This document shows, in pieces, positions 58,014 through 64,000 of a stretch of DNA of 64,000 bases (the stretch's first letter is position 1; each line of letters opens with the position of its first letter). The notes under the pieces are model-generated. The model did no database searches and had not been told where the DNA came from. It saw nothing but the letters and a program-made list of their open reading frames with translations. Position numbers and translations under genes: made by a program. The DNA comes from Geitlerinema sp. BBD 1991-9 (GTDB taxonomy: Bacteria > Cyanobacteriota > Cyanobacteriia > Cyanobacteriales > Geitlerinemataceae): NCBI GenBank assembly GCA_001657325.1, contig LWRO01000005.1, forward strand, positions 248,001-312,000, written 5' to 3'.

Positions 58014-58285
58014 TGGGTGTTAACTCGTCATAATTTTGCGCGGAGGGGTGGGTGTTTGAGGGCGGGGGCATGAAAAATGGGCTGGATGGCTGATGGGGCA
58101 TGGGTTTGGAGAGATCGACCTTAAAAGGCGATCCGCGCAACTGCTGAAATGCTTGTGGGACAAGGGTTCTCGCAGTTCTGCAAGCGAGCGAGAATTGTGT
58201 TTTTCGCTCGATCGATGCTATTATCAGGGGTGTCCGCGCAACTGCACATTGAAAACTGCATAGGAACAGGTTTTCAGATCGAGAA
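58014..58285 (+). promoter_or_regulatory. CRISPR leader with promoter
   Basis: 272 bases between dcd and the first repeat. A promoter reads into the array: TTGTGT (58195-58200), 18-nt spacer, TATTAT (58219-58224). An inverted repeat TTCTCGC/GCGAGAA (58167-58173, 58188-58194) lies just before it. The 13-mer TCCGCGCAACTGC occurs twice, at 58132-58144 and 58233-58245, exactly 101 bases apart, and could be a recognition site for the adaptation machinery. This places the leader on the left, agreeing with the orientation in which the repeat ends in ATTGAAAC. Confidence 0.75.
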
Positions 58286-59385
58286 GTCTAAATCCGATAA
58301 AATCCCTTTTAGGATTTATTATCTTTTTAAATTAGGTCAGCAAGCCTCTGACCTCGTCTAAATCCGATAAAATCCCTTTTAGGATTTATTATATCACTGG
58401 AGACTTCTCCCTCTATTGGGTTCCTAGTCTAAATCCGATAAAATCCCTTTTAGGATTTATTATAAAAGATTTTTAGATGAGGAATAGTCAGCGAGTTGAT
58501 CTGCTGGAGCGTCTAAATCCGATAAAATCCCTTTTAGGATTTATTATATCTTCATACCAATTAATATAAACATTTAGGATACGGTCTAAATCCGATAAAA
58601 TCCCTTTTAGGATTTATTATGCAGTTTCTTATGGAAGAAAGGGTGATTCAATCTATCGTCTAAATCCGATAAAATCCCTTTTAGGATTTATTATATTTGA
58701 GAAGCTATGTCAGGGATTTCGACATCTAATTGTCTAAATCCGATAAAATCCCTTTTAGGATTTATTATCTGCAACCTAGAAAAATAAATGTCTTATTTAG
58801 AAGTCTAAATCCGATAAAATCCCTTTTAGGATTTATTATTTCGCCGGGAGAGCCGTTGGCGGTGTGGCGGACGAAGTCTAAATCCGATAAAATCCCTTTT
58901 AGGATTTATTATGACCGACCGACAGGCGATCGCGATTCAACTCAGCGTCTAAATCCGATAAAATCCCTTTTAGGATTTATTATTTGTGTTTTTACTTTTG
59001 TTAGATTAGGGTTTATAACTCGTCTAAATCCGATAAAATCCCTTTTAGGATTTATTATTGGACATCTCGGCTTTAAGGTAATCATTGACTCTTGTCTAAA
59101 TCCGATAAAATCCCTTTTAGGATTTATTATTGCAAGATAAAGGACATTAAAGATCCTCAAAACCGCGTCTAAATCCGATAAAATCCCTTTTAGGATTTAT
59201 TATGAAAAACCGTGGTTCAATCATCACTTTCCTCTTCTTGTCTAAATCCGATAAAATCCCTTTTAGGATTTATTATTGTGCTATGACATGTGCTATCTTT
59301 TTCTTACCCTTGAAAAGCTGATTGTCTAAATCCGATAAAATCCCTTTTAGGATTTATTATTGTGCTATGACACCACTTCTCCTTA
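58286..59385 (+). CRISPR. Leader-proximal CRISPR block with a variant repeat handle (15 repeats, 15 spacers)
   Basis: Fifteen identical 37-nt repeats, starting at 58286, 58356, 58427, 58511, 58584, 58658, 58732, 58803, 58876, 58947, 59022, 59094, 59167, 59240 and 59324. Each begins GTCTAAATCCGATAAAATCC, continues CTTTTAGG, and ends ATTTATTAT. The first 28 bases equal those of the downstream block; the last nine differ completely. Spacers are 33-38 nt except spacer 3 (47 nt), spacer 14 (47 nt) and spacer 15 (25 nt). The hairpin survives: AAATCC pairs GGATTT around CTTTTA. No cas genes are in the window, so the subtype is open; the downstream repeat type is common with subtypes I-D and III in cyanobacteria. 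Confidence 0.97.
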
Positions 59386-62300
59386 GTCTAAATCCGATAA
59401 AATCCCTTTTAGGGATTGAAACGTGAATAATAAAATATCATCCCATCAATGGTATCACGTCTAAATCCGATAAAATCCCTTTTAGGGATTGAAACAGTGT
59501 AATTACCGGGGGCGTTAGTAAGTACTGCCCCCTGTCTAAATCCGATAAAATCCCTTTTAGGGATTGAAACATGTGGTTGCAGTCTCCCATGATTCCAACT
59601 ACAAAGTCTAAATCCGATAAAATCCCTTTTAGGGATTGAAACAAAAATGTAATTATCAGTGACGCTACGGCTAAAGGTCTAAATCCGATAAAATCCCTTT
59701 TAGGGATTGAAACACCCGGTTAGGTTGTGTCAAACTATGCTTGTCACAAGTCTAAATCCGATAAAATCCCTTTTAGGGATTGAAACATTACAACAGGTAG
59801 AGGATGGCCTGAGGGGGGATACGGGTCTAAATCCGATAAAATCCCTTTTAGGGATTGAAACTTCTAAATCAATCCCACTTGTACGCCAATCCATGAGTCT
59901 AAATCCGATAAAATCCCTTTTAGGGATTGAAACGGCAAACAACCTGTCAATACAGGGGAGCGACGCAAGGTAAGGTCTAAATCCGATAAAATCCCTTTTA
60001 GGGATTGAAACTAGCATAATTTCTACTAACATATACATAAGAACGTCTAAATCCGATAAAATCCCTTTTAGGGATTGAAACCTCTAGGCGGATAATGCAC
60101 ATCAGAGATCAAATCCCGTCTAAATTCGATAAAATCCCTTTTAGGGATTGAAACCTCAGGAGATGGGGGCTCAGCCTGTGTATTTGAGTCTAAATCCGAT
60201 AAAATCCCTTTTAGGGATTGAAACCTTCCCTTTGTTTCTATACCCAATATAGATCGGTGTCTAAATCCGATAAAATCCCTTTTAGGGATTGAAACGCTCT
60301 ACCTTAGAATCAAAAACTAATCCTTGTGAGGAAGAGTCTAAATCCGATAAAATCCCTTTTAGGGATTGAAACTTAGGTAATATTAAGAAGCTCTGCCATC
60401 ATTGGAATGTCTAAATCCGATAAAATCCCTTTTAGGGATTGAAACTTTAGTTGCATCCATTTTTAGTCCTTCCCATTTAGTCTAAATCCGATAAAATCCC
60501 TTTTAGGGATTGAAACCCCACTTCCCGGTATTAAGGAGGGCATTCTTTACTTCGTCTAAATCCGATAAAATCCCTTTTAGGGATTGAAACTGGCAAGATT
60601 TCGATCGGGGATACACTCGGAACCTCGTCTAAATCCGATAAAATCCCTTTTAGGGATTGAAACTACAAATACTATAAGACTGTGTTACATTATATGTGTG
60701 TCTAAATCCGATAAAATCCCTTTTAGGGATTGAAACACTACAGTGGTAGGCAATTAAATATCATGGTTAAAGTCTAAATCCGATAAAATCCCTTTTAGGG
60801 ATTGAAACAACGCCTTTTGGAAGGCGGCGGCAAAAGTAAACGAGTGTCTAAATCCGATAAAATCCCTTTTAGGGATTGAAACAAACCTTGGAAGGCTACA
60901 CGATAACTTAAACCTTTAGTCTAAATCCGATAAAATCCCTTTTAGGGATTGAAACGTTAGACAGCTTGTCCTTGTTTCTTGTTTTTGCCCGTCTAAATCC
61001 GATAAAATCCCTTTTAGGGATTGAAACGAAAGATGCTCCAACTGTTCCTACTGACATCCCGCCTGTCTAAATCCGATAAAATCCCTTTTAGGGATTGAAA
61101 CTTATAGTTATAAAAACTTATCTAACCCATAGGATAAAGTCTAAATCCGATAAAATCCCTTTTAGGGATTGAAACCTCGGATTTCACCGTTGTCTTTAAG
61201 TTTCACGAAACTGTCTAAATCCGATAAAATCCCTTTTAGGGATTGAAACACGTCAAGCATCACCATGTATTTCTTCTTACTGCTAGTCTAAATCCGATAA
61301 AATCCCTTTTAGGGATTGAAACATATTCCTAAAGGATACATAAAATTAAACTATAAAGTCTAAATCCGATAAAATCCCTTTTAGGGATTGAAACTAGTAG
61401 CTACGAAGATTTAGATTCAGCTTATGAAAGTCTAAATCCGATAAAATCCCTTTTAGGGATTGAAACTGTTGCCTGATAATCTTCAATAGCCTTTTTAATC
61501 CTGTCTAAATCCGATAAAATCCCTTTTAGGGATTGAAACCTTTTTCTGTTTCACCTTCCACCCATCTTTTCCTGTCTAAATCCGATAAAATCCCTTTTAG
61601 GGATTGAAACGAGCCATAGCGTGGCTGTGGGCGACTCCATTGAAAGTCTAAATCCGATAAAATCCCTTTTAGGGATTGAAACCCTTTATTTTGGTTCTAG
61701 AAATAATACCTATTGCATTAGTGTCTAAATCCGATAAAATCCCTTTTAGGGATTGAAACTCATTTTCTGGAATTAAGTACATATTGGATTACTGTCTAAA
61801 TCCGATAAAATCCCTTTTAGGGATTGAAACATGTATTTAATAAGTGTGGCTAATAGGTTAAATAAAGTCTAAATCCGATAAAATCCCTTTTAGGGATTGA
61901 AACTCAATAGTTGGATCGTAACTGTAATCTATTCTATAGTGTCTAAATCCGATAAAATCCCTTTTAGGGATTGAAACACGGGAAGTTGCATTTTTTCCGC
62001 CCATTCGTTTACGTCTAAATCCGATAAAATCCCTTTTAGGGATTGAAACATGATGAGGTGGATTTTCAATCATTAGATGGTGCGGGTTGTCTAAATCCGA
62101 TAAAATCCCTTTTAGGGATTGAAACCTGACGGGGTAGCTAACAGGTTATTCAATGCAAAGTCTAAATCCGATAAAATCCCTTTTAGGGATTGAAACATTA
62201 TTGCCCTATTTCTAGGTAAAATATCTTGTAGAGTCTAAATCCGATAAAATCCCTTTTAGGGATTGAAACCAATAGACTAATTATTGTTATTGTAACATTG

Positions 62301-64000
62301 ACAAGTCTAAATCCGATAAAATCCCTTTTAGGGATTGAAACGGCATCGTCAGCTACTACTTCTCTCCAAAGGTATCGTCTAAATCCGATAAAATCCCTTT
62401 TAGGGATTGAAACCTCAAGACCTAGTATAGTTAGATTAACCGATTCAGTGTCTAAATCCGATAAAATCCCTTTTAGGGATTGAAACACTATCCCCAAGCA
62501 TCCGAAATACAGAGAGCATAGTCTAAATCCGATAAAATCCCTTTTAGGGATTGAAACAGCTGTGATAGTATAATCTTCACCCAGAGGATACCAAGTCTAA
62601 ATCCGATAAAATCCCTTTTAGGGATTGAAACTGAATCAAGTTGGAATTCTTGCCAAAACCCTGTATAGTCTAAATCCGATAAAATCCCTTTTAGGGATTG
62701 AAACCTAGATTTACGAATGCTTCCTCTTGGTAGACGTGTCTAAATCCGATAAAATCCCTTTTAGGGATTGAAACTTTGCATCGCGAAGTTAAGAGATACT
62801 CTGACGATGTCTAAATCCGATAAAATCCCTTTTAGGGATTGAAACCTCTTAGAGTTAATAGATACTGATGAAAAATTGGGTCTAAATCCGATAAAATCCC
62901 TTTTAGGGATTGAAACCTGGTGGAGGTTGCGGATAGTCGATATCAATCCCTGTCTAAATCCGATAAAATCCCTTTTAGGGATTGAAACATAAGCGATCAT
63001 GTCCTCTAAGCTACTGTAAATGGCTTGTCTAAATCCGATAAAATCCCTTTTAGGGATTGAAACTTGAGTCAATTCCTTAAGAAAGTTCAAACACCTGGAA
63101 CGTCTAAATCCGATAAAATCCCTTTTAGGGATTGAAACTATAAAGATGATAGATACTTTAATGATGTCTTAAAGTCTAAATCCGATAAAATCCCTTTTAG
63201 GGATTGAAACATCGACGATGTCGATCCGTGGACTTTGGAAGTGTCGGTGTCTAAATCCGATAAAATCCCTTTTAGGGATTGAAACCTCTCTCGCCACCAC
63301 ACTTGGGGACGCTTACATCGTTCCTCAAGTCTAAATCCGATAAAATCCCTTTTAGGGATTGAAACCCTTCAATTGACGAAGACCCCTCCCAACAGACCCC
63401 GTCTAAATCCGATAAAATCCCTTTTAGGGATTGAAACCGATACTTTTTCGAGGTTCTCCCCGAAAGCGTTGGTCTAAATCCGATAAAATCCCTTTTAGGG
63501 ATTGAAACATGTAAAGTTGGGTTGACACCCTGATGAGGGCTTGAGTCTAAATCCGATAAAATCCCTTTTAGGGATTGAAACTTTGTATCCAAAATAGATC
63601 GGTATAGGGAGGTTGTCAAGTCTAAATCCGATAAAATCCCTTTTAGGGATTGAAACATCTATGTCCATTTTTTGTACCCGTCTCCTTTGTTTAGTCTAAA
63701 TCCGATAAAATCCCTTTTAGGGATTGAAACAAGTTAGAAATACTTTATGGTTCTTTGACTTAAACGTCTAAATCCGATAAAATCCCTTTTAGGGATTGAA
63801 ACGTGATGATTTTCTTAGTCATGGTTGTTTCCTTTTCTTGTCTAAATCCGATAAAATCCCTTTTAGGGATTGAAACAAACATCTGTTTAACAAAAATTTA
63901 ATATTAATCATGTCTAAATCCGATAAAATCCCTTTTAGGGATTGAAACATGGATAGATAAGATAAACTCTTCATCCATATTTGTCTAAATCCGATAAAAT
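59386..64000 (+). CRISPR. Leader-distal CRISPR block with the GATTGAAAC handle (64 repeats, continues past window)
   Basis: Repeats run from 59386 to the right edge, the last (63983) cut off after 18 bases, with 63 complete spacers, mostly 33-40 nt. Each repeat begins GTCTAAATCCGATAAAATCC, continues CTTTTAGG, and ends GATTGAAAC. The stem AATCCC/GGGATT closes the loop TTTTA, and the last eight bases ATTGAAAC match the usual crRNA 5' handle. All copies look identical except the one at 60118-60154, which has C to T at 60126. Spacers are varied, AT-rich on average, and carry pieces of phage-like coding sequence. The trailer end is not in the window. Confidence 0.98.

Follow-up and report, generated by a model that had tools for sequence, protein, structure and literature searches.

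How one CRISPR array can come to carry two kinds of repeat, with a common core and entirely different 3' ends, is the question raised by contig C80 in the draft genome of Geitlerinema sp. BBD 1991-9 (5.98 Mb, 113 contigs). The window, that is the whole 64-kb stretch that was analysed (C80 248001-312000), contains the start of an array at position 58286, from where it runs rightward past the window edge, occupying C80 306286-313626 in all. The 37-nt repeats fall into two blocks, the leader-proximal copies ending in ATTTATTAT and the rest in GATTGAAAC. Judged from the sequence, the 3' end of the repeat in this type I-D array was very probably rewritten by the array's own integration rule, the original tail having been lost and bases of a spacer captured in its place.

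The whole array comprises 100 spacers and 101 repeats, of which 15 are variant and 83 canonical, two carry a point change and one is a palindromic trailer copy. Repeats 1-15 consist of the 28-base core GTCTAAATCCGATAAAATCCCTTTTAGG followed by ATTTATTAT, and the repeats from number 16 onward of the core followed by GATTGAAAC. The variant block extends from 58286 (start of repeat 1) to 59360 (end of repeat 15), and repeat 16 occupies 59386-59422. Exact matches to ATTTATTAT were found 15 times in the window, every one at the end of one of repeats 1-15 (100 shuffles of the window gave a mean of 0.43 matches and a maximum of 3), confirming the initial annotation of two repeat types in one array with an all-or-none switch and 15 identical variants. 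The 28 bases had also been described as shared exactly with 64 downstream repeats; the core is exact in 15/15 variant copies but in 62 of the 63 downstream copies that are complete, with a C-to-T change at core position 9 in the one at 60118, and the 64th downstream repeat is only partial, being cut by the window edge. The features of the locus, in window positions, are as follows.

58056..58285, + strand: CRISPR leader (aligned 230 nt), with identity to the C58 and C89 leaders
58286..59360, + strand: 15 leader-proximal repeats of identical sequence, GTCTAAATCCGATAAAATCCCTTTTAGG + ATTTATTAT (37 nt), and the intervening spacers 1-14
59277..59288, + strand: opening 12 nt of spacer 14, identical to the 12 nt that open the spacer 15 remnant and probably copied in a 49-nt rather than a 37-nt duplication
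59289..59323, + strand: putative true spacer 14, 35 nt (47 - 12 = 35, the commonest length)
59324..59351, + strand: part of repeat 15, putatively a formerly truncated 28-nt repeat without GATTGAAAC
59352..59360, + strand: ATTTATTAT, putative start of the old spacer 15 (nine bases; 9 + 25 = 34) and origin of the new tail
59361..59385, + strand: spacer 15 remnant (25 nt); all others among the 521 spacers parsed in three arrays are longer
59386..64000, + strand: canonical units with repeat end GATTGAAAC, the array continuing to C80 313626

The leader of the C80 array was identical to that of an array on contig C58 at 183/221 aligned positions and to that of an array on contig C89 at 178/225, and all three arrays end, opposite the leader, in a degenerate palindromic repeat. 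Homologous leaders and degenerate terminal repeats at the right-hand end place the C80 leader on the left, and so bear out the location of the variant block on the leader side. The terminal repeat of C80 (313590-313626; L009 8591-8627) is a near-perfect palindrome, GTCTAAATCCGATAA-AATCCC-TTATCGGATTTAGAC, and in the C58 trailer palindrome the outermost base is changed on both arms with pairing kept. The C89 array (L010, reverse strand) consists of 163 canonical repeats that do not differ from one another, two repeats shortened to 28 nt by an internal deletion, and one trailer copy; the same internally deleted repeat, followed by the same spacer, occurs in units 63 and 86, which represent a duplicated unit. 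The C58 array contains 259 identical repeats, differing from the canonical repeat at 2/37 positions, together with one repeat with a point change and one trailer copy. In spacer 251 of this array the last 16 bases are those with which the repeat begins, part of the repeat being duplicated.

The type I-D gene set, cas1d, cas6, csc1, csc2, cas10d (csc3), cas3' and cas2, is found in one operon adjoining the C58 leader, with genes above the NCBIfam cut-offs for TIGR03174, TIGR03159, TIGR03157, TIGR03158, TIGR01877, TIGR04093 and TIGR01573. The genome as a whole has six Cas1 matches (five over cut-off) and three Cas6 matches (two over cut-off), none of which lies on C80 or C89, so that both arrays would most simply be served in trans by the C58 operon. 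The C80 array has the same leader and repeat type as the array at this operon, which in trans fits as its putative machinery. The handle had been discussed in terms of its type III role in self/non-self discrimination; as the array goes with type I-D by leader and repeat, that argument is not directly applicable. Inside the I-D cluster, between cas10d and cas3, there is a nucleotidyltransferase-like gene (C58, L017 9307-9735) which scored below the cut-off of the MntA model and above that of Pfam Polbeta. A Cas1 match at G000:C97 95981-96955 lies within a 797-aa open frame, perhaps coding for a fusion protein.

Two irregular spacers, neither of them mentioned in the initial annotation, are located exactly at the switch. 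Spacer 15, which separates the last variant repeat from the first canonical one, has 25 nt and is the sole spacer under 30 nt among the 521 parsed from the three related arrays of this genome, the next shortest being 30 nt. In related arrays among the matches listed, spacers of 25 nt account for 2/1,585, spacer 15 being one of them, and the commonest lengths are 35 nt (333/1,585) and then 34 nt (282/1,585). The remnant and the nine tail bases together measure 34 nt (25 + 9), the second commonest length, and since this is normal for a spacer, ATTTATTAT is best interpreted as the nine bases with which a former 34-nt spacer began. Spacer 14, with its 47 nt, has the same leading 12 bases as spacer 15, leaving 47 - 12 = 35 nt. 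The variant repeats are all 37 nt (15/15), and spacers 1-13 span 33-47 nt. After the 12 copied bases of spacer 14 (59277-59323) the same eight bases, TGTGCTAT, recur, an unexplained coincidence, and spacer 3 (58464-58510), also 47 nt, has no prefix in common with spacer 4, which is likewise unexplained.

From these lengths we infer the succession of events, and that the I-D system has a ruler. Repeat 15, while it was leader-proximal, would have been without its last nine bases, GATTGAAAC, and 28 nt long. Either the strand transfer on the spacer side would have taken place 28 nt from the leader, nine bases before the usual 37, when the 34-nt spacer 15 was inserted, or a 9-nt deletion would have arisen later in repeat 15; short integration of spacer 15 is slightly preferred, since two acquisitions in a row would be those with errors. 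If Cas1-Cas2 measures a distance of 37 nt from the leader to set the spacer-side cut, the next acquisitions would duplicate the 28 repeat bases together with nine from the start of spacer 15. The first acquisition after the tail loss would have overshot by a further 12 bases (49 nt), giving the 47-nt spacer 14, and ATTTATTAT would then have become hereditary repeat sequence, copied faithfully in 13 further acquisitions, with spacer 15 left with 25 bases. Duplication lengths of 28, 49 and then 13 times 37 rebuild the observed 7,304 bases exactly, which is a consistency check and no independent test, since the pieces are taken from the array itself. The duplication length stays at 37 nt despite the changed repeat end, the presumed exceptions being the two earlier acquisitions (28 and 49 nt).

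The handle had been proposed to have been replaced in one event. It did arise once, in the leader-proximal repeat, but probably not in one step, the old end having been lost and the start of a spacer then taken as repeat. Later acquisitions, 13-14 of them, kept the new tail, and the view that a wholly different 3' end is tolerated in adaptation holds, the length rule being the probable reason. Counting against the capture of spacer bases are the two consecutive acquisition errors (28, then 49), a coincidence left unexplained, the restart of TGTGCTAT in spacer 14 and the 47-nt spacer 3 without a common prefix. A further point against it is that GGATTTA is complementary to the beginning of the repeat itself and also matches the trailer repeat, for which a fold-back mutation could account in part.

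Overshoots such as that proposed for spacer 14 recur in related arrays. The sample consisted of 1,585 spacers from arrays with such repeats in this genome and eleven others of the order, the arrays being blocks among the matches listed rather than every array of those genomes; one block, G116, yielded no usable array. Adjacent spacers with 8-12 leading bases in common were found in 5 of 1,551 pairs among the matches listed, C80 included.

G001, spacers 95/96: 8 bases in common, newer spacer 43 nt, remainder 35
C89, spacers 49/50: 8 bases in common, newer spacer 43 nt, remainder 35
C89, spacers 44/45: 10 bases in common, newer spacer 45 nt, remainder 35
G012, spacers 112/113: 10 bases in common, newer spacer 44 nt, remainder 34
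C80, spacers 14/15 (the switch itself): 12 bases in common, newer spacer 47 nt, remainder 35

The newer spacer is the longer one in 5/5 pairs, and its length minus the common bases is 34 or 35. Among the matches listed, none of the 1,551 adjacent pairs has 6 or 7 leading bases in common, and none of the 12,509 pairs at lags of 2-10 has 8-20 in common (adjacent versus lagged pairs, Fisher P 1.6e-5, the pairs not being independent). One adjacent pair with 37 common bases and 11 lagged pairs with at least 21, which represent identical or near-identical spacers, were set aside. The five pairs suggest that the spacer-side cut occasionally slips outward, by what may be about one helical turn, and the proposed inward slip of nine bases is similar in size to the overshoot of 8-12. 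In the G001:C4 array (L039/L040), the neighbouring spacers 178 and 179 have their last 10 bases in common and the older is 25 nt long, perhaps a leader-side counterpart of the slip.

An all-or-none switch at a single point, in a genome whose arrays have leaders and repeat cores in common, would also be expected if two arrays with different repeat ends had been joined by recombination within the common 28 bases. The tail together with the end of its core has 15 matches in the genome, all in the C80 array, and the search for a second ATTTATTAT array, named beforehand in the initial annotation as the sign of such a fusion, found none in this genome, which argues against it. Recombination in the core would moreover leave full-length spacers on both sides, so that the 25-nt spacer and the 12 common bases are unaccounted for, and a fusion is considered very unlikely. 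Mutation of the last nine bases in place, for example by a fold-back copy of the repeat start (GTCTAAATCC to GGATTTAGAC) which then spread from the first repeat, has in its favour that GGATTTA in the new repeat is complementary to TAAATCC, that the trailer repeats of the three arrays are palindromes of such kind and that the variant repeat folded alone has this long stem. It leaves the remaining TTAT unaccounted for, together with the 25-nt spacer and the normal length of remnant plus tail, and is regarded as very unlikely.

The genome is a draft in 113 contigs and the arrays are repetitive, which would favour an assembly or read error, but a false tail would hardly appear in 15 identical copies. 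The variant units are about 70 nt long with spacers of their own and the junction (repeat 15, remnant and repeat 16) is 99 nt, so that single short reads should cover them; an artefact of this kind appears extremely improbable. The cause is most likely a natural ruler event, and acquisition continued after the switch.

The canonical core AAAATCCCTTNNAGGGATTGAAAC was present in 16/388 genomes of the order, and the order-wide patterns detect only repeats with this core. The core followed by AGG and a base other than G matched in 96/388 genomes, with 17 matches in this genome (15 in the C80 array and two on other contigs) and at most three in any other; the reversed-pattern control gave up to four in one genome, so the counts outside this genome are chance-like. 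With the departure from the canonical end placed later in the tail, there were three single matches, in 2/388 genomes. In the wider genome contigs the core followed by a base other than G had no match and neither had the canonical repeat, own or near genomes possibly being excluded there. Among 14 genomes of the family, the spacer 15 region was found in one, the own genome, and because the genus is represented in the set by this genome alone, there is no ancestral allele for comparison. Exact 20-22-base pieces of spacers 6, 8, 9, 11, 14 and 15 gave no protospacers in viral contigs. Two viral matches to spacer 6, in which 20 bases agree and the sequences then diverge, were rejected as protospacers. 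Against phages, the 34-nt spacer 15 gave weak matches alone (best E 1) and spacer 6 gave none. As neither an ancestral allele nor a protospacer across ATTTATTAT-TGTGC was found, the key join is deduced from lengths.

The predicted 8-nt tag of repeats 1-15 is UUUAUUAU, compared with AUUGAAAC, the usual tag of the array. The variant repeat is predicted to form a shifted six-pair stem, AAAUCC/GGAUUU, of -4.7 kcal/mol, compared with -6.9 kcal/mol for the canonical stem. In the context of the array, the canonical-like stem had a median pair probability of 0.60 in the 15 variants versus 0.945 in 84 canonical repeats, and when the variant repeat was folded alone a competing long stem was the best fold. 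With a weaker stem and a competing fold, processing of the variant crRNAs would be plausible but weaker, and the variant units may be either functional or silent, the two alternatives of the initial annotation. The captured bases re-form the six-pair stem in these predictions, which may be the reason for the survival of the accident; the share of random tails pairing equally well was estimated at 0.8 %, a post hoc figure of little weight. That the newest crRNAs still work with the unrelated tag UUUAUUAU, the I-D complex reading the length of the tag and the hairpin rather than the sequence, so that arrays could swap the handle by capture of spacer bases, is a tentative and rather doubtful proposal.

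For type I-B, I-E and II-A, repeats engineered to carry insertions or deletions are described as having the second cut fixed 8-10 bp past an internal motif; in II-A mutants aberrant cuts also fell eight bases into the spacer, and one II-A repeat block mutant had no integration at the repeat-spacer side (PMC6895254). For type V-A, the repeat-end sequence is stated to matter besides the ruler, and changes in length drastically lower full integration (PMC13034035). The II-A block mutant and the V-A system indicate that a length rule need not be indifferent to the repeat end. The engineered I-B, I-E and II-A systems resemble the proposed C80 case in that the spacer-side cut lies at a fixed distance after a change in the repeat end, but they are laboratory mutants, whereas C80 has a natural type I-D-linked array in which the rewritten end was kept for 13-14 acquisitions.

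A type I-D ruler was not described in the available portions of the literature consulted on rulers; prespacer length is the subject of another partly available paper (PMC10284694). The type I-D system of Synechocystis has spacers of mostly 35 nt, and cleavage by its Cas6d behind the stem-loop gives an 8-nt 5' tag; unlike in the C80 array, no replacement of the tag is described in the available part of the paper (PMC10212523). As with point changes of the first repeat that spread to newer units, the change in C80 was copied into later repeats. An array on contig C7 (L055, reverse strand) has GGAAAT in repeats 1-22, at one end, and GGAAAC in repeats 23-36, apparently a one-base handle change that spread; in C80, in contrast, nine bases changed, with a recognisable source and a shortened spacer. 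The repeat at the C7 switch also has a 6-nt internal deletion. In the titles and abstract openings of the open-licence literature, which are weak evidence, no natural array with a repeat end rewritten from a spacer was recognised. Rulers are already known from engineered repeats, and in terms of these partial sources the natural rewriting of a crRNA handle by one would be the new element.

The C80 array would thus be a natural record of an integrase measuring, in which three duplication lengths (28, 49 and 37) are kept in order; related arrays among the matches listed add repeated overshoots by 8-12 bases, about one helical turn. It suggests that the sequence of the repeat 3' end is dispensable for acquisition in this array, and it offers a route by which repeats and crRNA handles may change abruptly. 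With the two handles present side by side in a single array and cell, the array would also provide a clean test of the handle sequence in interference.
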